DNA of 47,049 nucleotides from Spirochaetae bacterium HGW-Spirochaetae-1. GTDB taxonomy: Bacteria > Spirochaetota > UBA4802 > UBA5550. Under the pieces are notes generated by a model, which made no database searches, had not been told where the DNA came from, and saw only the letters and a list, made by a program, of their open reading frames with translations. Both the position numbers and the translations under genes were made by a program. Of the stretch, positions 4,428 through 45,187 are shown one piece after another. Where the stretch lies: NCBI GenBank assembly GCA_002839375.1, contig PGXY01000014.1, positions 1-47,049 on the forward strand, in the 5' to 3' direction. Numbering within the stretch: the stretch's first letter is position 1; every line of letters starts with the position of its first letter.

Positions 4428-6335
4428 TCACTCTTCTTTTTGATCCGACGGCGTTACGAGATCAATCTTTTTCCCGTTGGAAACGGGCGGAAGTTTTTCT
4501 CCTTTCATTACCAACTTTATTTCTTCCGAATCGAGAGTTTCCCGTTCGATGAGATACTCGGCCATTTCTTTAAACGCCGTCATGTTCTGCTCAATCATTT
4601 CTTTGGCCTCGGCGCGGTTTTTTTCTATTATGGTTTTTACCTCTTCGTCAATTGCCGCGGCAGTGCCTTCACTATAATCACGGTGCTGGGAAATCTCCCG
4701 TCCGAGAAATATCTGCTCGTTCTTTTTTCCGAATGTAAGGGGACCCATCTTTTTGCTCATGCCCCATTCACAGACCATTCTTCTCGCAATATCCGAGGCT
4801 CGTTCAATGTCATTGGATGAGCCCGTGCTGACTTCTCCAAATATCAGTTCTTCCGCTATATGACCGCCGAAGAGGTGTTTTATCTGGTTAAGCCAGTATG
4901 ATTGCGTATGTATATGCCTGTCTTCTTCGGGAAGAGACATGGTGAGTCCCAGGGCTCTTCCACGGGGAATGATCGTCACCTTGTGAACAGGATCCGTACC
5001 AGTCAGCATTCCAAGGATGGTGTGCCCCGCTTCATGATAGGCGATTACCTTCTTTTCCCTTTCATTAATGAGCATGGATCTCCTTTCGGGCCCCATAAGG
5101 ACTTTATCCTTTGCCTCTTCCATCTCTTCCTTGTTCACACGCTTTTTATTTTTACGTGCTGCCAGGAGAGCGGCTTCATTTACCAGGTTGGCCAGATCTG
5201 CACCGGTAAACCCCGGCGTGCCTCGTGCGATTATCTTGAGGTCGACCTCTTTTGAAAGGGGTATTTTCTTTGTGTGAACAGCAAGGATTTTTTCCCTGCC
5301 TTTTACGTCGGGATTGTCAACAACAACCTGACGGTCAAAGCGGCCGGGACGCATCAGGGCCGGATCGAGTACATCGGGTCTGTTAGTTGCTGCAACGATT
5401 ATTACACCTTCATTTGTTTCAAAGCCGTCCATTTCAACCAGGAGCTGATTGAGGGTCTGTTCACGCTCATCGTGACCGCCGCCAAGCCCTGCTCCGCGCA
5501 GCCTTCCCACGGCGTCAATTTCGTCGATGAATATGATGCAGGGAGCACTCTGCTTCCCCTGGTCAAAGAGATCGCGCACCCGTGAAGCTCCCACACCGAC
5601 AAACATCTCAACAAAATCCGAGCCGCTGATTGAGAAGAAGGGAACACCGGCCTCACCGGCTATTGCTTTAGCAAGAAGAGTTTTTCCTGTCCCCGGAGGG
5701 CCCATGAGCAGAACGCCCGTAGGTATTTTAGCGCCGATATTAATGAATTTTTTGGGCTCTTTCAGAAATTCGATTATTTCCTGAAGCTCAACTTTGGCCT
5801 CATCAACGCCGGCAACATCATCGAATGTTACTTTTGTCTTCATTTCAGGATTCAACTTGGCCTTGCTTTTACCGAAAGAGAGAGCCTTATTTCCCGTGGA
5901 CTGTATTTGCCTGATCATGAGAAACCAGATGAATCCGAAAAACAAAAGCCAGGGAAGAAAATTCAGAATTCCTTTCAGCCAGAAATTATCGTCGTCATCC
6001 TTGCCTTCCACAACGACATTGTTGCTCAGCAGGGTTTTAATGAGATTGGAATCTTCATAGGGGATTGATGTTTCAAAGTCATGTTTTTCAGTGCGTGAGC
6101 CGAATCCACGCGATTCGGGCTTTTCAGTTTTTATGGCGGTTTCTCGATAATATCCTATAATTTTCCGATTATTTTCAATAGTGATTTTACCAACTTCCTT
6201 ATTCTCGACTTTTTTTATGAAGTCGCTGTAATTGATAAATTTATTTGTTTTTCCCGACTGGTTGACCTGGAATATGGCCAGTATAAGCATTCCAATCAAC
6301 AGGAAAAGTGCAATCTGTTTTACAGTCTTGTTCAT
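4428..6335 (-). CDS. ftsH: Membrane AAA+ zinc metalloprotease FtsH
   Basis: FtsH is the membrane-bound, ATP-driven hexameric protease that removes misassembled membrane proteins and short-lived regulators. At 635 aa it has typical length. Seen: transmembrane helix 1 (about 7-24), an extracytoplasmic segment, helix 2 (about 120-143), Walker A GPPGTGKT (212-219), Walker B IIFIDEID (267-274), the second region of homology with the arginine fingers in MRPGRFDR (328-335), the zinc site HEAGH (434-438) and the third-ligand aspartate D509. An AGGAG site lies six bases before ATG 6335. It follows tilS by 82 bases in the same direction; the tilS-ftsH order is widespread in bacteria. Confidence 0.98.
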
Positions 6336-6417
6336 TATATTCTCCTAATGTGTACTCTCGTTTAAACCGGAGGGGAGCTGACAGGCGTGATTTCGAGTCG
6401 TAACTGTCAATATCATG

Positions 6418-7833
6418 TTACATTTTGCGAATAACAAGGATTTTATTTGAACCATCATTGATCATATGGTCAATGGAAATCCGGTTTTGAAATCCTGTGG
6501 TAAAACCTGTCATTACAGCGGCAATATGCGCGCCAAATATGAGTAAAGGGACACAATTCTTGCTTTCATTGTCAAGCTTCTTTTCAATAAAGAGTTCTTT
6601 AATTTTTTTTGTTCCCGATCCCAGATGTATCCTGTCGCCCTTTCTCCTGTTCCTGATATAGAATGTAGTGTCGTCGCTGCTAATTGTTACAAAAATATGG
6701 TTTTTGTCCAACCTGTTTTCTTCGAAATAGTCAAAATCCGAAAAAAATATCTCAACCTCAATTCCCGCTTCGGGAATCCCCAGTGTCCTGCAACCCGTTT
6801 CATCAATTTCCACGGGGTAGATCCATTGCTGTGATGAAGATAACGACTGTCCGGCTTTTTCAATCCTGATGAGTTTTCCCGCTTCACCGGGAAATTTTCT
6901 CATACGTATATCTCCGGTTTTATACAGGATCATATGCGATTTCCCCGTATTGTACTTCTTCCATATTTCATTCAGCATTCCCGAATTGACATAGGGGCCT
7001 GCATGACGTCTTATGACAGATGACAGCACATGGTTGAACAGAACCCGGTCGTCGTCAATTTTATACGTCGACAGGGTTATGCCTTCATTATCCTGCTCCA
7101 CGAGCTGACCGTAATTTTCAGCAATGAGCCTGTCGGTAAGTCTGATCTGCTCCCCGGCCTGCCTGCTCATTGTATGAAGAGAGTCCAGGAAGGCGGGATA
7201 TCTTTCCCGTATAACAGGAAGTATCACATTTCTCATGTGATTGCGGAGATAACCGTTGTCGGCATTTGAATCGTCATCTCTCCAGGAAAGACCATTCTCT
7301 TCCAGATAACGAACAATGTCTTCCGATGAAATTGTCAGTAGCGGCCGTATTATCATATCCCTCGAGGCATGAATCCCCTGCAGGCCGTGGATTCCCGTCC
7401 CGGACAATATCCGCATCATAAGTGTTTCAGCATTGTCGTTTTTGCTGTGGGCCGTTGCTATTTTCGTATAATGATAGCGGTCGGCCGTTTGCTGCGCCAG
7501 CGCATAGCGGATTTTACGCGCCTGTTCTTCAAAGGAATATCCGGGGTCACGCCGCTTTTTGAAATCAAACCTTTCGGGCATGAAGGGGATCTTATAAAAC
7601 CGGGCCCTTTCTTCAAGAAACTTTTCATCAAAATCCGATGCTTCACCGCGCATAAGATGATTCAAATGAAATATGCCCAGTTCGACATCAAGGATATCCC
7701 GCAGCCCGGCCATTAGATGGAGCATCGCCATTGAATCCTTTCCTGCCGAACAGGACAGGAGTACCCTGTCTCCGGAAGCAAGGAGATGTTCTCCTTCGAC
7801 AAAATTAATTACTTTTTTTATAATATCATGCAT
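6418..7833 (-). CDS. tilS: tRNA(Ile)-lysidine synthase TilS
   Basis: TilS attaches lysine to C34 of the CAU anticodon of a minor tRNA-Ile, switching its reading from AUG to AUA; it is normally essential. The PP-loop is SCSAGKDS (27-34), a SAGKDS version of the usual SGGxDS. The N-terminal ATP-pyrophosphatase domain continues to about residue 220, with HSKNDNAETLMMR matching the conserved HxxDDxxET region. A middle substrate-binding region and a C-terminal TilS domain follow, with a run like RNRRKGDRIHLG near 390-405. The length of 471 aa is normal. ATG 7833 was chosen; GGGAAGAG upstream is a moderate ribosome binding site. Divergent from the mutase gene at 8187. Confidence 0.95.
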   Translation of the reverse strand: MHDIIKKVINFVEGEHLLASGDRVLLSCSAGKDSMAMLHLMAGLRDILDVELGIFHLNHLMRGEASDFDEKFLEERARFYKIPFMPERFDFKKRRDPGYSFEEQARKIRYALAQQTADRYHYTKIATAHSKNDNAETLMMRILSGTGIHGLQGIHASRDMIIRPLLTISSEDIVRYLEENGLSWRDDDSNADNGYLRNHMRNVILPVIRERYPAFLDSLHTMSRQAGEQIRLTDRLIAENYGQLVEQDNEGITLSTYKIDDDRVLFNHVLSSVIRRHAGPYVNSGMLNEIWKKYNTGKSHMILYKTGDIRMRKFPGEAGKLIRIEKAGQSLSSSQQWIYPVEIDETGCRTLGIPEAGIEVEIFFSDFDYFEENRLDKNHIFVTISSDDTTFYIRNRRKGDRIHLGSGTKKIKELFIEKKLDNESKNCVPLLIFGAHIAAVMTGFTTGFQNRISIDHMINDGSNKILVIRKM

Positions 7834-7980
7834 GTCAGCGGCTCTTCCCTGTGTGATAAATTATCTTTACCGCCAGGTCATGAATAAATCATATTTCATG
7901 CGGTTATTTTCTGTCTATTATAATTTTTTAATGTTCCGGCATTCATATTTTATATATATTACATGAGTTGATGTATACAT

Positions 7981-8062
7981 TATGGGCACTTATAAAAATT
8001 AGGTTTTCCAATGTTTGCGACCACAAGGGAACAGTCATATAATTAATATACAGGTTCCCTTA
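7981..8062 (-). repeat. TA-flanked structured repeat, copy A (shortened)
   Basis: Read on the minus strand this starts TAAGGGAAC and ends GTGCCCATA, like copies B (15453-15568) and C (28126-28187). It keeps the AAGGGAAC/GTTCCCTT hairpin arms and the CCAATGTTTG spacer. It lacks most of the large hairpin present in copy B, keeping a single AAAAATTAGG-type arm. It lies in the 353-base tilS-mutase divergent space (7834-8186), in which I see no gene; the rest of that space is AT-rich and could hold promoters for both genes. Confidence 0.75.
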
Positions 8063-8186
8063 TTGTAATAACAGGAAAAAGTGTTGCAATTGTTATGGGT
8101 ATTTCAGGATCATCTCTTTTTAACGGCCGCATTGAATTGTTGCTTAAATATTTCTTTTTTTCGTCAACCATGCATGAGGTACTGTA

Positions 8187-9938
8187 ATGAATCAGGAGAT
8201 TTCTGATCATATCAAGGATTGGACCAGGAAACCCTTTGACAGGGAAACCATCGATGAAATTCAATCGCTTGTTGACACTAAAAATGAAACGGAACTTATA
8301 GACAGATTTTACACCCATCTGGAATTCGGCACCGGCGGTCTTCGCGGTATTATCGGTGCAGGAACAAACCGTGTGAACGTCTATACCATAGGCATGGCAA
8401 GTCAGGGCCTGGCTAATTACATTATCGCCAACCAGGGGCAAAGCAAGGGCGTGGTTATAGCCCGCGATTCCCGTAGAATGTCCGATGTTTTTGCCAGAGA
8501 AACAGCGGCCATCATGGCGGCTAACGGCATAAAGGTCTATTACTTCAATGACATAACCCCCACCCCGCTTGGCAGTTTCGCCATTCGTGAATACGGCGCC
8601 ATGGCCGGGGTCGTCATAACGGCCAGCCATAATCCACCCGAGTACAACGGCTACAAAGTGTACTGGGAAGACGGCGGCCAGATCGTTCCTCCCCATGATA
8701 AAAATATCATTGACGAGGTAAAAAAAATCCATTCCATCTCCGAGATCAGGCGCATGGACTTTGACACCGGCGCTGCCGGGGGCGTTATTACCGTCATCAA
8801 TAACGAAATTACCGAATCATATATACGGCAGCTAGAGAAGTATACTCACCGTACGTCCACCAGTTCAGATATTAGCATCGTTTATTCACCCCTTCATGGC
8901 AGCGGATATTCCGTCATCCCGGAAGTGCTTCGCCACTTCGGTTTCAACAACATTCATCTCGAGGAAAAGCAATCCATACCCGATGCCGATTTTTCCACGG
9001 TCAAGTCTCCCAATCCCGAGGAGAAAGAGACCATGTCGCTGGCCATAGAAATGGCTGAAAAAATCGGGGCCGATATTGTTCTGGCCACCGATCCCGACGC
9101 GGACCGCATGGGAGTCGCTTTCAAGGACTCTTCAGGGAATTATACCCTTATCAATGGAAACCAGATAGGAACAATGCTTGAATACTACATTCTGGCGAGA
9201 TGCCGGGAAGACAGCACGCTGCCCGCCGGCGCCACGGTCATTAAGACCATAGTTACAACGGAGCTTCAAAGAGAAGTGGCATCGAGTTTCCAGTGCGGAA
9301 TCATTGATGTCCTTACGGGATTTAAATGGATAGCCGCCAGGATGAAGGATTTCGATGCGGATAATTCACGAACATTCCTTTTCGGCGGCGAAGAGAGTTA
9401 CGGATACCTCCCTGTTCCCTTCGTGAGAGACAAGGATGCCGTGAGTTCATGTTATTTTTTCGCGGAAATGACCGACTGGCTTAAACGGCAGGGAAAAACT
9501 CTTCACAATCTGCTCGATGAAATATATTTGAAATACGGCCTGTACCTGGAAGACCTGCATTCCCTCACCCTGAAAGGAAAGGATGGACTGGAAAGAATAC
9601 GAGATATCATGAAAAGCTTCCGCCAGGCGCCGCCCAAGGATTTTGGCGGCAGAGCCGTAAAGGAATTCCGTGACATCAAATCGGGAACCGTAACGAACCT
9701 CATTACCGGCGATGAAACAATCCTCACCGACCTGCCCTCATCCGATGTACTGCAGTTTTTATTCGTCGACGGAACAGTTATAACCATGCGCCCATCGGGG
9801 ACAGAACCGAAAATCAAGTTCTATTTCAGTGTCAAGAAAAAGACTTCGCGGGGAATGCTGAAAGAGGACAAGGCTGATCTCTATACACAGATTGACATGC
9901 TGAAGAAAGAACTGCTGGCCAAGGTGGAATCGATGTGA
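8187..9938 (+). CDS. Phosphoglucomutase/phosphomannomutase (alpha-D-phosphohexomutase)
   Basis: Interconverts hexose 1- and 6-phosphates through a phosphoserine, feeding glycogen, nucleotide-sugar and envelope sugar synthesis. At 583 aa it matches the longer PgcA/PGM2-like group. Seen: GTGGLRG near the N-terminus (48-54), the active-site TASHNP with the phosphorylated Ser147, the Mg-binding DPDADR (302-307), the sugar-binding GGEESYGY (400-407) and the C-terminal phosphate-binding RPSGTEPK. GAGG lies seven bases before ATG 8187. Substrate (glucose or mannose) cannot be fixed from sequence; GGEESYGY resembles the glucose-type group. It converges on ybeY with only nine bases between stops. Confidence 0.93.
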   Translation: MNQEISDHIKDWTRKPFDRETIDEIQSLVDTKNETELIDRFYTHLEFGTGGLRGIIGAGTNRVNVYTIGMASQGLANYIIANQGQSKGVVIARDSRRMSDVFARETAAIMAANGIKVYYFNDITPTPLGSFAIREYGAMAGVVITASHNPPEYNGYKVYWEDGGQIVPPHDKNIIDEVKKIHSISEIRRMDFDTGAAGGVITVINNEITESYIRQLEKYTHRTSTSSDISIVYSPLHGSGYSVIPEVLRHFGFNNIHLEEKQSIPDADFSTVKSPNPEEKETMSLAIEMAEKIGADIVLATDPDADRMGVAFKDSSGNYTLINGNQIGTMLEYYILARCREDSTLPAGATVIKTIVTTELQREVASSFQCGIIDVLTGFKWIAARMKDFDADNSRTFLFGGEESYGYLPVPFVRDKDAVSSCYFFAEMTDWLKRQGKTLHNLLDEIYLKYGLYLEDLHSLTLKGKDGLERIRDIMKSFRQAPPKDFGGRAVKEFRDIKSGTVTNLITGDETILTDLPSSDVLQFLFVDGTVITMRPSGTEPKIKFYFSVKKKTSRGMLKEDKADLYTQIDMLKKELLAKVESM

Positions 9939-9947
9939 TAGCGCCCT

Positions 9948-10412
9948 TCAGGAAGAAGAGACTGCTTTGAACATCTCTTCTTCTTTACGCTCCATTATTT
10001 TCTCGTCTTTTTTCGATCTCTCGTGATCATATCCCACGAGATGCAGAAGACCGTGGATTATAAGCCGCGTCAGTTCGTCCTTCAGTGTTACGCCGAACTC
10101 AGTCGCCTGCTCCATGGCGCGCTCCGCCGAAATGTATATGTCTCCCAGTTCCTCCATGGCCGTATTGACTGCGGGAAAGGGGTCCTCGCGGTATGCGAAA
10201 CTTATCACGTCCGTAGGTTTGTTCTTCTTGCGGTAAGCCCGGTTTATTTCCCGTATATAAGCATCATCGGTGACAATGAGAGAAATTGCGACTTTATCAA
10301 GTCCGAGTATATCCGAGGAGGTCGAAAGGATTTTCTTCAGGAACCGGGCCGTCACTTTTCCGTAGGGAAGTTCGATATTCTCCGTAAATATTTCAATTCT
10401 TCTTCTGGCCAT
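9948..10412 (-). CDS. ybeY: Endoribonuclease YbeY (rRNA maturation factor)
   Basis: YbeY is a zinc-dependent single-strand endoribonuclease needed for 16S rRNA 3'-end maturation and ribosome quality control. The diagnostic zinc motif HGLLHLVGYDH is at residues 120-130 (H120, H124, H130), close to the C-terminus as expected. I chose ATG 10412 (154 aa, beginning MARRRIEIF), five bases after GGAGA; a longer reading frame exists to 10466, but its extra 18 residues run through the end of the pgpH-like gene and have no support. With this start the gene overlaps the preceding gene by 20 bases, so translation is probably coupled. Confidence 0.95.
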   Translation of the reverse strand: MARRRIEIFTENIELPYGKVTARFLKKILSTSSDILGLDKVAISLIVTDDAYIREINRAYRKKNKPTDVISFAYREDPFPAVNTAMEELGDIYISAERAMEQATEFGVTLKDELTRLIIHGLLHLVGYDHERSKKDEKIMERKEEEMFKAVSSS

Positions 10413-12678
10413 TTTTCTCCAGTTTCTTTTCCAGGCTTTTAACTTCCTCTGCGTCGGGATATTCAAGCCGGGTGTGGTATATGCCGTTCAGGATGCTCAG
10501 GAATGATTTCTGTATTGTATTGAGGTCGGCCATGGAGAGGTCCGTATCTTCCAGCTCGCCCTCGTTTAGTTTATTGTAGATGATTTTCCTCACCAGGCCT
10601 TCGAGCTTGGCCTGCGTCGGCTCCTGGATCGACCGCGATGCAGCTTCGATCGAATCGGCCAGCATGACAATCGCCGATTCCTTGGATTGCGGTCGGGGGC
10701 CGGGATACTGAAAATCCACCTTGCTGATTTCCTCGCTGTTTTCGTCATCGGTCATGGATTCCAGGGCCTTGTGGTAAAAATAGGTCATAGTGGTTTTTCC
10801 GTGGTGTTCCTTGATGAATGCTATGACCGCCGGCGGGAGTCCGTGTTTCCTGGCCAGGTTTACTCCCTTGTTTATATGGGATATGATGAGCTGGGAATAA
10901 TACTTCGGCGACAGGGTCTTGGCCCGGGGATCGGTGACCTTGTTCTCGATGTACATTCCTGCGTCCTCTATCTTCCCTATATCATGATAAAAAGCGCCTA
11001 CCCTGGCCATGAGATGGTCGGCATGTACGTCCTTGCAGGCCGTCTCTGCCATGTTTGACACCAGCAGGGAATGGTGATAGGTTCCGGGAGCCTCAACAAG
11101 CATTTTTTTGAATATCTCGGCGTTCAGGTCAGCCAGCTCCAGGAGCTTGAATTTTGTGGTGATTCCGAAGATGCTTTCATAGAGGGGAAATATCCCCAGG
11201 ACAAGAATTGAATTGAGTATGCCGTGGGCCAGGGCCAGCTGTACGTTTTTAAACATGATTATTGCCGGTATTTCCTGGATGAGGTACGCCGCGATGATAA
11301 CCAGGGAATTGATGACTCCCAGTATGAGGCCGCCGCGGAGAAAATCCGTCCTGCGCTGGACATTGTAATTGACGAAGACACCCAGGATTGCGGAACTCAC
11401 TGACAGAATGATGGTGACAAGGTCGCCGCCATGGATAAGCGTGCTGAAAAAAACAACATGCAGTCCGATTATCATGGCCATGTAAATATTGAACAGGATC
11501 GCTATCATCATGGTAACGAAGGGAATAGGCAGGAGCAGTGCAAAGGTTATATTGACATTGTTCAGCACCTCGTTCCTGGCCACCATGTATGAATACAGCA
11601 TGTACAGGAAAAGAAGAGAAAAAATTACAATGGCTCCCTGCTTGTCGGGAATGAGGATGCTGTTATATTCGACAAGGAAAAATCCCATGATTACGACAAA
11701 GATAATCTGGAGCAGAAATATGCCGCTTATATAGCTGACATTTGAAGATTCAGCGTAATTGTTAAGAATCCTGATTTTCCCCAGGCTCTCCAGGGTAATG
11801 GTGTCGCCCTCCCTGACAATGGTCTGTCCCTTTTTGAGCAGGCCCATGACGGGCTTGACACCGGTCATAGCCTCGTTGATGCGCCGCTGTGTTTCTTCTT
11901 CATTGAAATATGTATTGGGTTTCAAACCGGCCACGATGATCTGCGTAACGGCATTGAGCGTTTTCCGCGGCATATTGGGGGCAATGGAATAGCCGATGGT
12001 ATACACCCTTTTTTTCATGTCATGAATGGTGTACAGGTCGTCAAGGGTTCCGGAAATTTCTTCGGTTTCAGTGCCGGTATTGATTATTCGTATGGATACG
12101 TTTTTGTTCTGGAGCTTCAGGGGATTGATGTACGGGGATTCAAGAATACTCATTTCCTTGTTATCGTAAATGTATATGAGAATTCTCGTCACGGTTTTGT
12201 TCAGTTCAACGGGATCGCCGTAACTGAGCAGCTGAAGAAGTATTTCATCGTTATATGTGAGATAGCGCGGAAGCCTGGACTTCAGGGCCATGAGCTGGAA
12301 CGTGAGGTCATCGGTGCCGATAACGGGATTGTCCTTCAGTGTGGTGATAATGGTGTTGAACAGGATGCCCGTCAGTTTTATACGCTCCATGAGGACCGAC
12401 GAGTCGCGGTCGAAAACAATGGGAATTGATTCGGCGATGCGCTTTTTCTTTATCTCTGTATCTTCGTCTTTCCGGTAATGTATGTCCTTGGGAACGCGGA
12501 TATCCTCCGTGGAGATATCGCCGATGTTGTACTCATAGGTAGCGCCCGTATTGTTCAGGGCTAGCAGAACCGTGGCAATTATAATGATTGCCAATGTGCC
12601 GGCCATGGAATAGCGGATATTCCTGTCCATGAAGACACGGGATATCTTGTCGGCGGTGTTTTGCGATACTATTTTCAT
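10393..12678 (-). CDS. pgpH: PgpH-like membrane HD hydrolase (7TM-7TMR_HD family)
   Basis: Family members hydrolyse the second messenger c-di-AMP (PgpH of Listeria). Here 761 aa contain one N-terminal helix (about 24-42), a large extracytoplasmic 7TMR-HD sensor region (about 45-310), a seven-helix block (about 315-500) and a cytoplasmic HD domain. The HD domain shows YHHS (534-537) and FYHDIGK with H565-D566, then HI and EHHG motifs further on. The start ATG 12678 lies only three bases after the phoH stop and has no visible Shine-Dalgarno sequence, so it probably relies on coupling. The phoH-pgpH-ybeY order is common in bacteria. Activity on c-di-AMP is inferred from the family; no diadenylate cyclase gene is in the window. 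Confidence 0.9.
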   Translation of the reverse strand: MKIVSQNTADKISRVFMDRNIRYSMAGTLAIIIIATVLLALNNTGATYEYNIGDISTEDIRVPKDIHYRKDEDTEIKKKRIAESIPIVFDRDSSVLMERIKLTGILFNTIITTLKDNPVIGTDDLTFQLMALKSRLPRYLTYNDEILLQLLSYGDPVELNKTVTRILIYIYDNKEMSILESPYINPLKLQNKNVSIRIINTGTETEEISGTLDDLYTIHDMKKRVYTIGYSIAPNMPRKTLNAVTQIIVAGLKPNTYFNEEETQRRINEAMTGVKPVMGLLKKGQTIVREGDTITLESLGKIRILNNYAESSNVSYISGIFLLQIIFVVIMGFFLVEYNSILIPDKQGAIVIFSLLFLYMLYSYMVARNEVLNNVNITFALLLPIPFVTMMIAILFNIYMAMIIGLHVVFFSTLIHGGDLVTIILSVSSAILGVFVNYNVQRRTDFLRGGLILGVINSLVIIAAYLIQEIPAIIMFKNVQLALAHGILNSILVLGIFPLYESIFGITTKFKLLELADLNAEIFKKMLVEAPGTYHHSLLVSNMAETACKDVHADHLMARVGAFYHDIGKIEDAGMYIENKVTDPRAKTLSPKYYSQLIISHINKGVNLARKHGLPPAVIAFIKEHHGKTTMTYFYHKALESMTDDENSEEISKVDFQYPGPRPQSKESAIVMLADSIEAASRSIQEPTQAKLEGLVRKIIYNKLNEGELEDTDLSMADLNTIQKSFLSILNGIYHTRLEYPDAEEVKSLEKKLEKNGQKKN

Positions 12679-26936: not shown

Positions 26937-27027
26937 TGGGACTGATTTTTGCTTGATTTATATAGACCTTATAAAAAGATGAGCCTCGTATACTTTTTAT
27001 CAAATTCATACTTTTATGGAGCGGAAA

Positions 27028-28128
27028 GTGAACAATATCGAGAATAATTATAGCTCAATTGCCGAACAGATTTCTCTTAAAATCGACTCGCTGCTTGAAA
27101 CTATCGGAGACTCCTCAAAACGCGAAGCAGTCAAAAATTTCTGGAAGAATGACATTGTTGAATACTTTCTTCTCTGGCACAAACTGGGAGAGGAACTTAC
27201 TGCAGGAACTATTTCTCAGGACGAAGCCAGTGAAAAGATAATAAAAGCAACAGACGAAACCCTTTATAAAGGGGATATACTGGAAGAGAGCCTCCATGAT
27301 GATGAACTGGTAAAACAGCTGAAAAATATATTCAGGATTACCGGTGCACCCTATGGCCTGAAATCCAATGCCGTACGTCACGCCCTGGTGAAGCCGGGCG
27401 GATATCCCGGTGATTATGAACTCCTGGAATTCATATATAACAATGTCCCCACTTCGGATCACCTGGGATACTGCGCAGACAGGACATTCCTCGCCGACGG
27501 ATATGCCCGGGCAGTTAATGCCAGAAAAGATCTCATGAAGGATATACTCAAAAAGTATCTGAAATCCAGGGAAAACAGCGATACACCTGTTGAAATTCTT
27601 AACATTGCCTGCGGCGCTTCAAGGGACCTGCGGGAAATGTTTAAAGAGGAATCCTTTAATTTCAAATCGGAAATAAAATTTACCCTGATTGATAAATCTA
27701 CCGACGCCCTGAACTTTTCCCGGGAAAATCTGACCGGCATCCATAAAAATGTCAATTTCGATTTTCTGAACCACAGCGTCTACGATTACCTGAAAGAGCC
27801 CGATACCTACTTTAAAATGCTTAAAAACAAGGATATAGTCTATTCCATCGGCCTTGCCGATTATATTCCCGAAGAACCGCTGAAGGCCCAGACAAAGTTC
27901 TTCTTTGATCTCCTCAAACCCGGCGGATTGCTCATTATTGCCCACAAGGATTCCAAAAACTATCACCCCATTACTCCTGACTGGTGGGCCGACTGGACAT
28001 TCCACATGAGAAATGAGGATGAAGTGGTGAATATATTTAAATCAAGCGGTATAAATAATTATTCATTGACAATTGAACGGGAAAAGAAGACAAATATTAT
28101 ATTCTTCGTCATAATAGAGAAGAAATAA
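27028..28128 (+). CDS. SAM-dependent methyltransferase, PhcB-like family
   Basis: From GTG 27028 (GGAG six bases before) the protein is 366 aa. ATG 27016 in frame has no site but remains possible. The N-terminal half is helical, then GGYPGDYELL (124-133), a motif I recall from the PhcB-like group that makes 3-hydroxy fatty acid methyl ester signals. The Rossmann SAM-binding motif is ILNIACGASRDL (190-201), with the acidic motif II in LIDKS (220-224). No membrane segment, so cytoplasmic. The stop codon TAA is supplied by repeat copy C. The next gene, 83 bases on, is a seven-helix histidine kinase, as expected if the pair is a signal maker and sensor. Methyltransferase fold is confident; substrate is inferred. 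Confidence 0.85.
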   Translation: MNNIENNYSSIAEQISLKIDSLLETIGDSSKREAVKNFWKNDIVEYFLLWHKLGEELTAGTISQDEASEKIIKATDETLYKGDILEESLHDDELVKQLKNIFRITGAPYGLKSNAVRHALVKPGGYPGDYELLEFIYNNVPTSDHLGYCADRTFLADGYARAVNARKDLMKDILKKYLKSRENSDTPVEILNIACGASRDLREMFKEESFNFKSEIKFTLIDKSTDALNFSRENLTGIHKNVNFDFLNHSVYDYLKEPDTYFKMLKNKDIVYSIGLADYIPEEPLKAQTKFFFDLLKPGGLLIIAHKDSKNYHPITPDWWADWTFHMRNEDEVVNIFKSSGINNYSLTIEREKKTNIIFFVIIEKK

Positions 28129-28187
28129 GGGAATCTCAATAAATCATTTTATTGTTAATGAAAAACCTGATTTTTGAGGTGCCCATA
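28126..28187 (+). repeat. TA-flanked structured repeat, copy C (shortest)
   Basis: Begins TAAGGGAA and ends GTGCCCATA as in copy B, and keeps TGAAAAACCTGATTTTT from the second hairpin. It lacks the middle about 54 bases. Its first three bases form the stop codon of the methyltransferase gene, so it was inserted at or just inside the end of that gene, between it and the kinase. Confidence 0.8.
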
Positions 28188-28211
28188 CTTTAATACGGCA
28201 AAGGTGCATAC

Positions 28212-30356
28212 ATGTCCTTTCTGGGAATAACCGGGCTGGTTAATTTTGTAACCAGCACAATCCTGGGGATTTTTATCCTGTTCAAAAATCCCCAAAAAAA
28301 TCTCAGAAACACATACTTCCTATTAAATGCCAGTGTTGCCATTTTCAGCCTGGGATACTTCTTCTGGCAGATGTCGACGGATCTCATTTCCGCCACGATA
28401 TGGTTTAAAGTCCTTACCGTCGGCATTATCCTTATCAACGTATTCTTCATACATTTTGTCTTTGTTTATGTAGGTATCGCCAAGCGGAAAAAATACGAGC
28501 TTGGTATTTATTATCTCATAAGCCTGGTATTCATTTTCTTAAACATCAATTCACAGCTCTATACCTCAATGGAACCCCGTCATGGTATGGGATTCTGGCC
28601 GAATCCAACGGTTTTTTTTGACGTATACCTGATCTTCTGGTTTTTCCTCTGTTTTTACGGCTTTGGCTGGTTTCTCAAGAGCTATTATGATAGTTTCGGA
28701 TTTCAGAGGGAACAGAGGAAATATCTCACCCTTGGAGCTGCCGTGGGCTTCATCGGCGGTGCGTCAAACTGGCCCATGTGGTATGACGTTTACTTCCCCC
28801 CCTATGTCAATTTTTTCATCAGTATTTATGTTCTCCTTATTGCCTATGCCATAATCAAATACCGGCTCATGGACATAAAAATATTGCTCACCCGCGCCGG
28901 GATATTCCTTATTCTGTACACTGTAATACTGGGCATACCATTCTTTATGGGGTATCAAACCGACTTTGGTTTCGAATCATTCCTCCTTATTTTCGTATTC
29001 GCCACACTTGGCCCGGTGATCTATCAGTATCTTCAGAAGAAAGCAGAAGATGTCCTGCTGGGCAAACAACGAACCTATCAGAACATGTTTCTCCAGGCCG
29101 GAAAGGAGTTTCTCAGAGAAAAGGATCTGAACCGTATTCTGAAAATAATAGTCAATGGCGTGAAATACCAGATTCTTGTTGAATATGCCGCAATTTTTCT
29201 TCTCGATCAGGATAGCGGTGTTTATAAACTGAAATACATCAAGGGAGAGCATTCATTCCCTGAAGGTTTTTCCTTTGCCGCCGCTGACGATCTGATTATT
29301 CTCCTGCAAAAAGACAGAAGAATTATTTCTCTCGAAGAAATACCCAATTACATAAATAAATACACCATGACCCCGGTACAACTCATTGTTCCTTCCTTCA
29401 TGGATGACAAAATGCTGGGATTTCTCATCCTTGGTGAGAAAATGGACAAGACTTTCTATACCAATGATGATATTCAGACTTTCGATATTATTTCTCATCA
29501 GGCGGCACTGGCCATAGAAAACTGTCTTTATTACGAAGAAAAGGAACGCTTCCAGGAGAGAATATTTCAAAATGAGAAAAGTGCCTTTATCGGCGGCATG
29601 GCCGAGGGTGTGGCTCATCAGATAAATAACCGTCTTAACCACTTCTCCCTGGCAGCAGCTGAGATTGAAATGCTTATAAAAAAGTATCAAAATGATTTTC
29701 CCGCACCGGTTAGAGAAAATCCTCCCATAAAAGAAACCTTTGAGTCGCTGCAGACCATCAGCGAACAGCTCATCGATAACGTAAAAAGAACAAATGGCGT
29801 CATCAAGGGCGTGCTGAACTACGCGAATCTGACGCGGCGCGATGATGATATCGCTGAAATATTTTTTAACGAGATAATAGATGCCGCCATAGACCTGGCT
29901 CAGATCAAGCATGAAATCGAGGAATTCCCCATACAGGTCGATGTGGTTGGATCGTCCAACATTCTCTACGGAAAAATGACCCAGCTCCTGGAAAGTATCT
30001 TCAATATTCTGGACAATGCATACGAGGCCATTGAGGAAAAACGCATGTTCAAACTGAACGAGGAGGAAAGACGGAATTTCTCGCCGCGCATATCCATAAA
30101 ACTCGTTCAGAAGGACAATGTAAGCAGGATAGAGATTTCAGATAATGGTATTGGGATCAGGGAAGAAGACTATAAAAAAATATTTGCCCCTTACTATACG
30201 ACAAAATCTTCTTTTAAGACAACGTCGAGTTCCGGCATCGGTCTGTACGAAGTGAGCCGATTCATCCAGGAAAACCACAAGGGGAAAATCTGGTTCGAAT
30301 CGAAATACCTGGAAGGCACAACGTTCTTCCTGGAAATTCCCCGCATAATTTTCTGA
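28212..30356 (+). CDS. Sensor histidine kinase with 7TM N-terminus and GAF domain
   Basis: A 714 aa kinase. Residues 1-270 form a multi-helix membrane block of the histidine-kinase 7TM type (AYAIIKYRLMDIKILLTRAG is characteristic). About 295-445 is a GAF-like domain. The H-box is AEGVAHQINN with the phosphoacceptor His469. The N-box is around N598 and N602, G1 DNGIGI (644-649), F-box APYYTTK (659-665) and G2 SSGIGL (673-678), so ATP binding is intact. No receiver domain is present and no response regulator gene is adjacent. The ATG has AAAGG seven bases before. Partner is the upstream methyltransferase by position; ligand unknown. Confidence 0.93.
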   Translation: MSFLGITGLVNFVTSTILGIFILFKNPQKNLRNTYFLLNASVAIFSLGYFFWQMSTDLISATIWFKVLTVGIILINVFFIHFVFVYVGIAKRKKYELGIYYLISLVFIFLNINSQLYTSMEPRHGMGFWPNPTVFFDVYLIFWFFLCFYGFGWFLKSYYDSFGFQREQRKYLTLGAAVGFIGGASNWPMWYDVYFPPYVNFFISIYVLLIAYAIIKYRLMDIKILLTRAGIFLILYTVILGIPFFMGYQTDFGFESFLLIFVFATLGPVIYQYLQKKAEDVLLGKQRTYQNMFLQAGKEFLREKDLNRILKIIVNGVKYQILVEYAAIFLLDQDSGVYKLKYIKGEHSFPEGFSFAAADDLIILLQKDRRIISLEEIPNYINKYTMTPVQLIVPSFMDDKMLGFLILGEKMDKTFYTNDDIQTFDIISHQAALAIENCLYYEEKERFQERIFQNEKSAFIGGMAEGVAHQINNRLNHFSLAAAEIEMLIKKYQNDFPAPVRENPPIKETFESLQTISEQLIDNVKRTNGVIKGVLNYANLTRRDDDIAEIFFNEIIDAAIDLAQIKHEIEEFPIQVDVVGSSNILYGKMTQLLESIFNILDNAYEAIEEKRMFKLNEEERRNFSPRISIKLVQKDNVSRIEISDNGIGIREEDYKKIFAPYYTTKSSFKTTSSSGIGLYEVSRFIQENHKGKIWFESKYLEGTTFFLEIPRIIF

Positions 30357-42025: not shown

Positions 42026-43084
42026 TTACCAGTTGACTTCCTGATTCTTCCATAATTTGAAAAGGGTGACAAAAGAAAAAATCAACATGCCAATGCCACC
42101 GATAATATTTATTACAAGAATTGTTCCTGTTAAGTAGAAAAATCCCAGCACCATAAAATAAAGGGTAACAAGGTTTCTTTTCAGGGCAACGGTTACAATT
42201 TCAACAAGAAGACCTTTTTTCTTAAGCTCTTTACTGATAGCCTGGAGGCTCCCTGAATCGGTAGTTTTTGAAAGGGTCAGGAAAAGGAATAACACATTTA
42301 ATATATATATGATAATAGATACTATTCCCAGAATCATGCTGGCCTGTGTCTGGTTTATCTCATAATTCTTATATGCAATGGCAATCACAAAAAACAGTGT
42401 ACAGAAATTGTCTCCCACCGTATCGAGCCATTCACCTGACTTTGAGTAAGCATATTTTACTCGTGCCAGTTCTCCGTCAACACAGTCAAATACAATAGCC
42501 ATTGGCTGCAAGATAAGTCCTAAGTAATAGATATACCACTTATCACTGACTAACATTATGCTACCCACGAGCCCGACAAGGACAAAAAACGCCGTAACCA
42601 TATTGGGAGTAATAAAGGTTGTTCTGCATACATATTTTGTAAAGAAGAGTGACAGATAACGGTAGTAATGACTGCTGAAGGCTTCGCCCGGCTTTCTGCA
42701 GCTGTTTAAAATAGCTTTCTCGGCTATTTTATACGATGACGGGTCTGTCAATTCCTGGTAGACCGTATTCGGGGCAGTTGGTTTACCCGTCAGTTTCACA
42801 ATATATTCCTTGTTGATTATCGAAGATACATTAATACTGAGGATTCCTTTTTTAAAGTTGTTTTCTTTGTAGGGTTTTTCTTTTGATATTTTTATACCTA
42901 AATTCAGGTCAGAAAGTTTTTGAACACTTTCCGGTATAATGATAGTGTCATTTTCATGAATTATTTCAATTTTTTTAGATCCTGCATAATAGCATGAGAG
43001 TATTGCCCTCTCTAATACAGTAAGTCCGCAGATTTTCTGATTAAAGTCAACACCTGTGTTGCAGTTTAATTTTGCTGTTGTCAT
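42026..43084 (-). CDS. CDP-alcohol phosphotransferase with degenerate nucleotidyltransferase N-terminus (1)
   Basis: A 352 aa membrane protein. The C-terminal half has the CDP-alcohol phosphotransferase motif D-x2-DG-x2-AR-x8-G-x3-D-x3-D, seen as D200, D203-G204, A207-R208, G217, D221, D225, in a block of about six helices. This family joins an alcohol phosphate to a CDP-activated alcohol (phospholipid heads, or di-inositol phosphate). The N-terminal 130 residues (CGLTVLERAILSCYYAG) resemble the core of a sugar-nucleotidyltransferase fold, but lack the usual LAAGxGxR nucleotide loop. The architecture recalls archaeal IPCT/DIPPS fusions. A weak GGAA site precedes ATG 43084. It diverges from the cytidylyltransferase; the space between is AT-rich. 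Product unknown. Confidence 0.85.
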   Translation of the reverse strand: MTTAKLNCNTGVDFNQKICGLTVLERAILSCYYAGSKKIEIIHENDTIIIPESVQKLSDLNLGIKISKEKPYKENNFKKGILSINVSSIINKEYIVKLTGKPTAPNTVYQELTDPSSYKIAEKAILNSCRKPGEAFSSHYYRYLSLFFTKYVCRTTFITPNMVTAFFVLVGLVGSIMLVSDKWYIYYLGLILQPMAIVFDCVDGELARVKYAYSKSGEWLDTVGDNFCTLFFVIAIAYKNYEINQTQASMILGIVSIIIYILNVLFLFLTLSKTTDSGSLQAISKELKKKGLLVEIVTVALKRNLVTLYFMVLGFFYLTGTILVINIIGGIGMLIFSFVTLFKLWKNQEVNW

Positions 43085-43990: not shown

Positions 43991-45187
43991 ATGTTTGTTA
44001 TAATAAAAAACACCGAATATGCTAAGCAAAAAATCTGGGGCATGACGCTGCTGGAGAGAAATGTCCGAATTTTTTCTCAGAATGAAAATATATCTGAAAT
44101 ATACATTTTAACGGATAGATCCATTACTCTAAGAGATGATTATTACAAATGGAACAAAAAACCCTTCACTGAAATCCACAATGTATCACAAATAAAAGGA
44201 AACGGGAAATTCATTTTTGCCGATGCTAACCTGGTTTTTGATGAAAGGCTCATCGACAACTGCCTGAAAAAAAACAATGTATTTGTGGATTTTGCAAACA
44301 ACAGAGAAGGGATGTTTATTGTATCTGATTTTTCATATGAAACACTCAACTTTATTTTAAACTCAAACCTTGAACAATTGAAAGAAAAGTATGCTCCTTA
44401 TAAAACAGCGGATATGGAGAAATATATACTTAAGCTTCGCAGAATCCAGGAGCCTTTTCTGCTCTATATTAAAAACAGAGCAGATGTTAAATTTGCTGAA
44501 GATCTATCTTTTAAAAGATCATACAAAGGGGTAACGGATATTGTAACGCAATATGTTTATCCTCCATTGATTAAACGATTGGTCAAATTGACCTCGCCAA
44601 CCAATATCACACCAAACCAGATTACATATGTTTCGATGTTCCTTTCTTTTGGTAGTGTTCCTCTTTATTACTACGGATCTTTTGCACTGGCGATAGCCTC
44701 AGGAATTATAATGTCGATTCTTGACAGCTTGGACGGTAAGCTGGCCAGACTCACATATAGGACCTCTGACAGTGGGGATAAACTTGATCATTTTTCCGAT
44801 ATAATTTATTTATCGCTATGGTATATATGTATAGGTCTTTTTCTTGCAAATGCCTTCCCTGAACAAGCTACTACAATACATGTATGGAATGTTGTTTTAA
44901 ACACATGTTATTTCGCTGATAGGATTACAACCGGGCTTTTCAAAAAAATTTACAAATATGAACTTCACGATTTCAATTCAATTGATAGGTTTTTCAGACG
45001 CATACAACAGCGGCGCAATATAACGCTCCTCTTGCTTTTAACCGGCTATTTCGTTCCGGGAGGTTTTTTATCGGCATTCCTGTTCAACACAGCATGGATG
45101 CTAATTTCCTTCGGGTTTCATCTTTACAGGTTTATTTTCCTTGCGGTATTTCAGCTGGTGAGCGGAAGACCCCTGGAAAAACGCTAA
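43991..45187 (+). CDS. CDP-alcohol phosphotransferase with degenerate nucleotidyltransferase N-terminus (2)
   Basis: A 398 aa membrane protein. The C-terminal domain carries the motif as D245, D248-G249, A252-R253, G262, D266, D270. The lead-in KGVTDIVTQYVYPPLIKRLV and ITPNQITYVSM is typical of the family. The N-terminal 170 residues resemble a nucleotidyltransferase (WGMTLLERNVRIF, FIFADANLVFD), but have no GxGxR loop. Same overall plan as 42026-43084, though the sequences differ clearly. AAGGA lies eight bases before ATG 43991. It follows the cytidylyltransferase by 81 bases on the same strand, so the two probably work together. Confidence 0.85.
   Translation: MFVIIKNTEYAKQKIWGMTLLERNVRIFSQNENISEIYILTDRSITLRDDYYKWNKKPFTEIHNVSQIKGNGKFIFADANLVFDERLIDNCLKKNNVFVDFANNREGMFIVSDFSYETLNFILNSNLEQLKEKYAPYKTADMEKYILKLRRIQEPFLLYIKNRADVKFAEDLSFKRSYKGVTDIVTQYVYPPLIKRLVKLTSPTNITPNQITYVSMFLSFGSVPLYYYGSFALAIASGIIMSILDSLDGKLARLTYRTSDSGDKLDHFSDIIYLSLWYICIGLFLANAFPEQATTIHVWNVVLNTCYFADRITTGLFKKIYKYELHDFNSIDRFFRRIQQRRNITLLLLLTGYFVPGGFLSAFLFNTAWMLISFGFHLYRFIFLAVFQLVSGRPLEKR

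Follow-up and report, generated by a model that had tools for sequence, protein, structure and literature searches.

A methyltransferase and a HisKA_7TM histidine kinase paired in a spirochaete: a candidate signalling unit comparable to Phc

Phc signalling, in which a 3-hydroxy fatty acid methyl ester is made and sensed and the LysR regulator PhcA is controlled, is the closest described counterpart of the gene pair reported here. In the available excerpts of PMC8578825, the operon runs phcB, phcS, phcR, and phcQ, with a PhcB protein of 464 to 468 amino acids, a PhcR that joins a receiver to a kinase domain, and a PhcQ that is a receiver, and the signalling chemistry is worded as specific to the genus Ralstonia; an excerpt of PMC11960443 places the H-box histidine of PhcS at His 230. 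Titles and abstract openings, from a literature in which subscription papers were mostly outside the search, held no report of Phc-like systems in other phyla or of HisKA_7TM sensors with methyltransferases. Phc signalling itself being known, what we regard as new is a second receptor class and the breadth of the pairing between methyltransferase and receptor. Signal-making enzymes paired with a kinase are also represented by CqsA and LqsA, synthases of another enzyme family. To our knowledge, the HisKA_7TM family has no established ligand. As is proposed for the present pair, the alpha-hydroxyketone systems CqsA/CqsS and LqsA/LqsS employ a membrane histidine kinase that senses a lipophilic signal (PMC4821796, in excerpt), but CqsS and LqsS are 6TM receptors and are likened to our kinase by description, not by sequence. 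A further comparison is offered by FmtB (BPP1064), a Bordetella fatty-acid methyltransferase orthologous to the protein of structure 3OCJ, whose cavity holds what is likely palmitic acid; according to the excerpted text, methyl esters in B. pertussis rose when wild-type FmtB, but not a variant mutated in the SAM site, was overproduced, and the purified protein had no activity in vitro (PMC5426589).

The window, by which we mean the whole stretch of DNA analyzed (47,049 nucleotides), is contig 14 of a 5.2-Mb spirochaete genome in 14 contigs. The gene pair comprises the following features.

27018..27021, + strand: GGAG, Shine-Dalgarno-like, found by eye 6 nt before the GTG at 27028
27028..28128, + strand: SAM-dependent methyltransferase of the PhcB superfamily, proposed signal synthase (open reading frame, Pfam, motifs, model)
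27391..27414, + strand: methyltransferase family motif KPGGYPGD, residues 126-133, pattern KPxGYxGD
27601..27627, + strand: methyltransferase SAM-binding loop NIACGASRD, residues 196-204 (sequence motif)
27841..27864, + strand: methyltransferase family motif YSIGLADY, residues 276-283
28212..30356, + strand: 7TM-GAF-histidine kinase, proposed receptor (open reading frame, Pfam, model)
28242..28877, + strand: HisKA_7TM membrane sensor domain, PF16927, kinase residues 11-222 (Pfam)
29124..29516, + strand: GAF-like domain, kinase residues 305-435 (Pfam and model fold)
29616..29618, + strand: phospho-acceptor His 469 within GVAHQI (invariant in 22 homologues)
29979..30344, + strand: HATPase_c catalytic domain, kinase residues 590-711 (Pfam)

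Translation of the methyltransferase, whose stop codon ends at 28128, could begin at an in-frame ATG at 27016 or at the GTG at 27028, and the GTG, which is also the start taken in the earlier note, is the better candidate because GGAG lies 6 nt upstream of it. The two genes lie on the same strand and are separated by 83 nt, in which no terminator-like site was found. Upstream of the pair are genes for a Gfo/Idh/MocA oxidoreductase and a major facilitator superfamily (MFS) transporter, both assigned by Pfam, and downstream is a convergent phosphoglucomutase-like gene, recognized by eye. No response regulator or receiver gene is present among these neighbours, as the earlier note had already stated.

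The first protein is a class I SAM methyltransferase, scoring above the Pfam cut-offs for Methyltransf_31 (31.9 bits; cut-off, 27) and Methyltransf_20 (30.6 bits; cut-off, 21); the GGYPGDYELL stretch and SAM site that had been read from the DNA were located at residues 128-137 and 196-204, respectively. An NCBIfam search with this protein returned no family, a PDB search with its sequence alone gave a single chance match (streptokinase, E 0.018), and its AlphaFold2 model has a mean pLDDT of 94.4. The second protein was likewise correctly described as a seven-helix, GAF-containing histidine kinase with all ATP-site boxes. Pfam assigned HisKA_7TM (PF16927, 52.5 bits; cut-off, 28.6) and HATPase_c (67.5 bits; cut-off, 26.4), and the GAF match fell just below its cut-off (21.7 against 22.4 bits); the model (mean pLDDT, 81.4) has a GAF fold that aligns with 3trc over 159 residues at 3.0 Å (Z 18.6), and matches in the fold search were dominated by kinase cores and not by the 7TM part. 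Across 22 homologues there was no variation at His 469, at Asn 602, or at the G-box positions D644, G646, G648, G675, and G677. Judged by sequence, the protein is thus a HisKA_7TM kinase with an intact core.

Close relatives of the methyltransferase (E <= 1e-40) were found in 9 of 392 Spirochaetota genomes, and close relatives of the kinase (E <= 1e-60) were found in the identical nine. With stricter thresholds among 118 relatives, the methyltransferase (E <= 1e-90) occurred in nine genomes, the window's own included, and the kinase (E <= 1e-110) in the same nine, the next-best kinase match having an E value of 7e-56. The methyltransferase gene directly preceded the kinase gene in every one of the nine, that is, in the window and in 8/8 fetched neighbourhoods, and this bore out the maker-then-sensor order noticed at the outset; these nine genomes are related and do not represent nine independent events. 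The flanks of the nine pairs are unlike those of the window, one weak transporter match excepted. Adjacency that is kept while the flanks change indicates that the two proteins work together, and the pair is a real evolutionary unit. The check for kinases without the methyltransferase, for which the earlier note had asked, had a mixed outcome. No member of the kinase's orthologous group in the 392 genomes lacks the enzyme, but HisKA_7TM proteins further removed from the group do lack it: of 13 such loci fetched, 12 had a 7TM match and none had a methyltransferase match.

Beyond the Spirochaetota, a mixed methyltransferase alignment was run against 84,980 species, and 380 relatives were confirmed. 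The best 80 of these 380 were kept, copies were removed (seven loci, L039 to L044 and L095, duplicated contigs already included), and spirochaete and plasmid loci were added, giving 101 methyltransferase rows. A PhcS-type 6TM gene adjoined 36 of them and a HisKA_7TM gene adjoined 31, so that 67 of 101 were next to one or other membrane domain; five more had a receptor gene within two genes, three were at a contig end, and the remaining 26, mostly from Planctomycetota, had neither. As a control, a 6TM or 7TM gene adjoined 66 of 100 methyltransferase genes, compared with 70 of the 781 other genes that these loci contain, a rough contrast and not a test, since the loci were chosen by their methyltransferases and many of the 70 are presumably far-side neighbours of the same receptors.

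The relation to Phc was examined through a named Paraburkholderia cluster and locus L145, which served as the PhcB anchor, no PhcB named as being from Ralstonia having been found. The Paraburkholderia plasmid methyltransferase (468 amino acids) matches the window enzyme by tblastn (E 6e-19, 24.5% identity over residues 90-353); its gene is followed by that of a kinase, whose H-box histidine is residue 233, compared with His 230 in PhcS, and then by two receiver genes. Locus L145 encodes a methyltransferase, a 6TM kinase, a receiver-kinase, and a receiver, matching phcBSRQ in order and domains. PhcB-like methyltransferases sharing 52 to 59% identity were present in 25 of 399 genomes of the Paraburkholderia family, and in 24 of the 25 a 6TM kinase gene is next, the last being cut by a contig end. 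We regard this group as PhcB and PhcS. With up to four mismatches allowed, the phcS primers given in PMC11960443 matched nothing in 25 of the 27 loci L119 to L145; L127 and L141 each gave one weak single-primer match with four mismatches, which was not taken as identification. The window enzyme is about 21 to 25% identical to the PhcB-like proteins and shares with them KPxGYxGD, R170, CG, D226, GLxDY, W327, and R332.

A careful phylogeny of 98 methyltransferase rows was calculated after the removal of long or fragmentary sequences (L045_8131, L055_1759, L053_2841, L038_3695, and L036_4599) and near-copies (L113_3221, L085_5236, L105_5242, and L087_5740) and the addition of six of the 25 PhcB-like sequences. 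The window enzyme fell into a clade of 33 rows (support 99/94), and the pairing reaches beyond the phylum, with record titles naming Spirochaetes, Omnitrophota, Nitrospiria, Margulisiibacteriota, Saganbacteria, and a Clostridia metagenome-assembled genome (MAG); of the 33 rows, 27 adjoin a HisKA_7TM gene, two have one within two genes, one is at a contig end, and three are without. For two of these three (L045 and L067), a 7TM gene is present at another place in the locus, and the third, in a Desulforapulum MAG (L061), is a close relative with no such kinase in the locus or genome-wide. A quick tree of all 101 rows recovered nearly the same clade (34 rows, SH-aLRT 94) and placed L045_8131 and L055_1759, divergent methyltransferase-like proteins encoded beside 7TM genes, outside it on very long branches. 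In the 98-row tree, seven PhcB-like rows grouped in a separate clade (100/99), in the half opposite to that of the window enzyme. The phylogeny that the earlier note had proposed as a check put the enzyme in no clade of known other substrate and also outside the PhcB clade.

By these alignments and trees the window enzyme is distantly homologous to PhcB without being a PhcB itself. The pair resembles the Phc system in having a homologous methyltransferase directly before a membrane histidine kinase, in the same gene order, but its enzyme is in a separate clade and is about 100 residues shorter, its sensor is of HisKA_7TM-GAF and not PhcS type, and it has no PhcR or PhcQ neighbours. The pair does not belong to the Phc system, because the enzyme lies outside the PhcB clade and both a PhcS-type 6TM sensor and PhcR and PhcQ are absent. 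Of the suggestion that this is a Phc-type module, the homology of the enzyme stands, while the closer equivalence gives way to the separate clade, the unrelated sensor domain (itself anticipated as different), and the missing PhcR and PhcQ. Distant kinship of the 6TM and 7TM domains was also considered, and a profile comparison left it unsupported (probability 0.6%, E 0.09).

The membrane domain is the constant partner of these methyltransferases. The 6TM domain beside superfamily members is joined to at least eight output types, among them kinase (L035), hybrid kinase (L088), Hpt-ATPase (L116), SpoIIE phosphatase (the window's own genome, L027), adenylate cyclase (L032, a spirochaete), HD-GYP (L091 and L097), and GGDEF-EAL (L038), and in the own-genome cluster a 6TM domain joined to a methyl-accepting chemotaxis domain lies just beyond the phosphatase gene (L027 4654-6294). 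Units of both kinds, 6TM-linked and 7TM-linked, occur in the window's species. Methyltransferase and receptor domain are therefore the constant part of these units and the output domains vary. Most simply read, the adjoining membrane domain senses the product of the enzyme. In a tree of the 7TM domains, the window kinase, a HisKA_7TM member by the Pfam cut-off, differs from the rest of that family in belonging to a 14-row clade (100/97, with the bootstrap not fully settled) in which all 14 are linked to a methyltransferase. Partners of 6TM type are also seen in 4 of the 21 rows of the sister clade of the window enzymes, as well as in the deeper half of the methyltransferase tree, and this distribution, in an unrooted tree, suggests that the receptor may have been exchanged in the window clade while the enzyme was kept.

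On balance we lean towards a private signalling unit in which a signal resembling a fatty-acid methyl ester is made by the methyltransferase and sensed by the 7TM kinase; by analogy, the unit most likely works like Phc quorum sensing through an unrelated receptor domain. We infer a fatty-acid ester as the product. With SAM as methyl donor, the enzyme would act on the carboxyl group of a fatty acid, perhaps a 3-hydroxy one, or of an acyl precursor, and the resulting lipophilic methyl ester would partition into and across membranes, by which it could be released from the cell. It would then be bound by the seven-helix domain of the adjoining kinase, the signal running from enzyme to sensor, and the kinase would autophosphorylate at His 469 and then phosphorylate a response regulator whose gene lies elsewhere and which would set the output.

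The same gene facts would serve an unlikely alternative in which the methylated lipid stays in the cell's own membrane and the kinase reads the status of SAM or free fatty acid, so that the cell would sense its own metabolism and not its neighbours. Related methyltransferases with N-terminal PilZ (L046) or cNMP_binding (L088, L106, and L118) domains suggest control by internal state, and the unit includes no exporter; methyl esters, though, may cross membranes without one. The homologous Phc system, moreover, is truly intercellular according to excerpts of PMC8578825 and PMC6989110.

Structural comparison bears on the chemistry of the proposed ester signal. The best PDB match of the methyltransferase model is 3ocj (Foldseek E 2.1e-10), aligned over 262 residues at 5.8 Å (Z 19.5). 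The alpha-keto acid C-methyltransferase SgvM comes within 1 Z of it (Z 19.0 over 203 residues at 3.2 Å), which makes the two a tie; in a profile search 3ocj (E 3e-4) ranked behind a phosphoethanolamine methyltransferase. The FmtB/3OCJ protein is the closest solved fold by both aligners, some N-terminal helices included, and has similar R-x-R, CG, and GLxxY stretches, but sequence identity is 15%, the fold match is tied with other methyltransferases, and FmtB is described as membrane associated, with no sensor partner reported in the excerpted text (PMC5426589). The 3ocj match may thus hint at fatty-acid chemistry. A superfamily methyltransferase that follows a carrier-protein domain in a polyketide synthase on an Enterobacter ludwigii plasmid is a hint of acyl substrates. 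The tie with SgvM and the breadth of a superfamily that includes this fused form and the receptor-free Planctomycetota forms would also suit a signal of another chemical class (a methylated keto acid, a polyketide, or something else) for which the kinase would be the receptor; we consider this rather improbable, as the closest members whose chemistry is known or proposed, namely, PhcB by homology and FmtB by fold, act on fatty acids. Finally, a CheR-like enzyme that tunes the adjoining kinase by methylation, which strict pairing and sub-threshold CheR matches in two distant members (P0005, E 0.0011; an own-genome paralogue, E 1.3e-5) would allow, is very improbable, given that the window enzyme has no match to CheR (PF01739) in Pfam at E <= 1 and that superfamily partners (kinase, PP2C, cyclase, HD-GYP, EAL, and MCP), having wholly different cytoplasmic parts, share the membrane domain only and thus no common cytoplasmic methylation site.

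In arriving at our estimate for fatty-ester signalling, we counted against it the low identity to PhcB-like proteins, the separate clade, the unrelated receptor, the lack of an adjoining regulator, the tie of 3ocj with SgvM and its 5.8-Å deviation, the inactivity of FmtB in vitro, the kinase-free L061, the 26 receptor-free methyltransferases, and the wide occurrence of HisKA_7TM without a methyltransferase.

A broader proposal is advanced tentatively, and we would sooner doubt than assert it: that fatty-acid methyl ester signalling could be a language of several phyla, in which a single enzyme superfamily is combined with either of two unrelated membrane receptor domains, PhcS-type 6TM with its at least eight outputs and HisKA_7TM, with the receptor exchanged in the window clade and both units present in the window's species. 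If this is true, chemistry called Ralstonia specific would occur widely, and would probably be ancient, in lineages known chiefly from metagenomes, and communication between cells by such lipids may be much commoner than is recognized. Candidate ligands would also follow for orphan receptors, namely, HisKA_7TM kinases and the L032 6TM adenylate cyclase, the latter bearing on whether 6TM cyclase anchors are receptors (PMC4821796, in excerpt). The gene pairs are compact and testable in E. coli.

A distant response regulator to accompany the kinase was sought in the window's own genome with an Omnitrophota receiver, which gave 14 matches at E <= 1e-8, none of them distinctive. Several Omnitrophota units carry a stand-alone receiver beside the methyltransferase-7TM pair, much as phc operons include receiver genes.

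Methyltransferases of the PhcB-related superfamily, proposed makers of fatty acid methyl ester-like signals, adjoin PhcS-type six-helix (6TM) proteins with outputs other than a histidine kinase, both in other genomes and at a second locus, L027, of the window's own genome.

L032 (G101:C2), 8549-9961, plus: superfamily methyltransferase
L032 (G101:C2), 9958-11232, plus: PhcS-type 6TM adenylate cyclase
L116 (Spirochaetia MAG), 5308-9695: methyltransferase, then 6TM-Hpt-ATPase (CheA-like), stand-alone receiver and CheX-like protein (the last recognized by eye)
L038 (Rhizobium plasmid NZ_CP092352.1), 1517-4732: methyltransferase and 6TM-GGDEF-EAL protein, genes divergent
L027 (G000:C7:38000-56000), 8326-9735, minus: the genome's second superfamily methyltransferase
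L027, 6955-8310, minus: 6TM-SpoIIE phosphatase, directly after the methyltransferase
L027, 4654-6294, minus: 6TM methyl-accepting chemotaxis protein, just past the phosphatase

The two L032 genes overlap by 4 nt. Given the putative signal maker encoded beside it, the L032 cyclase is an obvious candidate for a 6TM cyclase under ligand control. Two Desulfobulbaceae MAG loci (L091 and L107) each carry two methyltransferase-6TM units in tandem, the first 6TM protein of L091 being a 6TM-PAS-HD-GYP protein, an arrangement that suggests two signals or a duplicated circuit. Methyltransferase matches were present in 117 Rhizobium plasmid records, and the neighborhood was examined in one of these, L038. 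The counterparts of the L027 cluster in relatives also include SiaC-like and anti-sigma-type ATPase genes (L030).

Some superfamily methyltransferases carry additional domains or form part of a larger enzyme.

L046, 1457-2809: methyltransferase with N-terminal PilZ domain
L088, 2660-4216: methyltransferase with N-terminal cyclic-nucleotide-binding domain
L106, 452-2155: the same architecture as L088
L118, 5296-6762: the same architecture as L088
L037 (Enterobacter ludwigii plasmid NZ_CP134637.1), 3625-6762: type I polyketide synthase with KS, carrier protein and C-terminal superfamily methyltransferase

Because of these N-terminal domains, second messengers may control signal making by the first four enzymes; neither domain is present in the window methyltransferase. 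In L037, release of the polyketide chain as a methyl ester is possible.

Other members were found without the paired kinase or without a membrane receptor.

L061 (Desulforapulum MAG), 5941-7047: close relative of the window methyltransferase (53-55%)

The L061 enzyme falls within a spirochete clade, and no kinase of the kind in the window pair was found in that MAG; possibly the enzyme was transferred alone, or the locus is a binning or assembly artifact. In five Planctomycetota loci (L071, L074, L076, L082, and L098), which represent a different circuit, the methyltransferase is convergent with an adjoining receiver-containing gene (receiver-HD-GYP in L071, by eye), no membrane receptor is present, and very large proteins lie nearby in some.

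Another part of the window is AT-rich (~35% GC versus 40-50% elsewhere) and contains a pair of oppositely oriented genes resembling CDP-alcohol phosphatidyltransferases.

Window, 42026-43084: first gene
Window, 43991-45187, opposite strand: second gene
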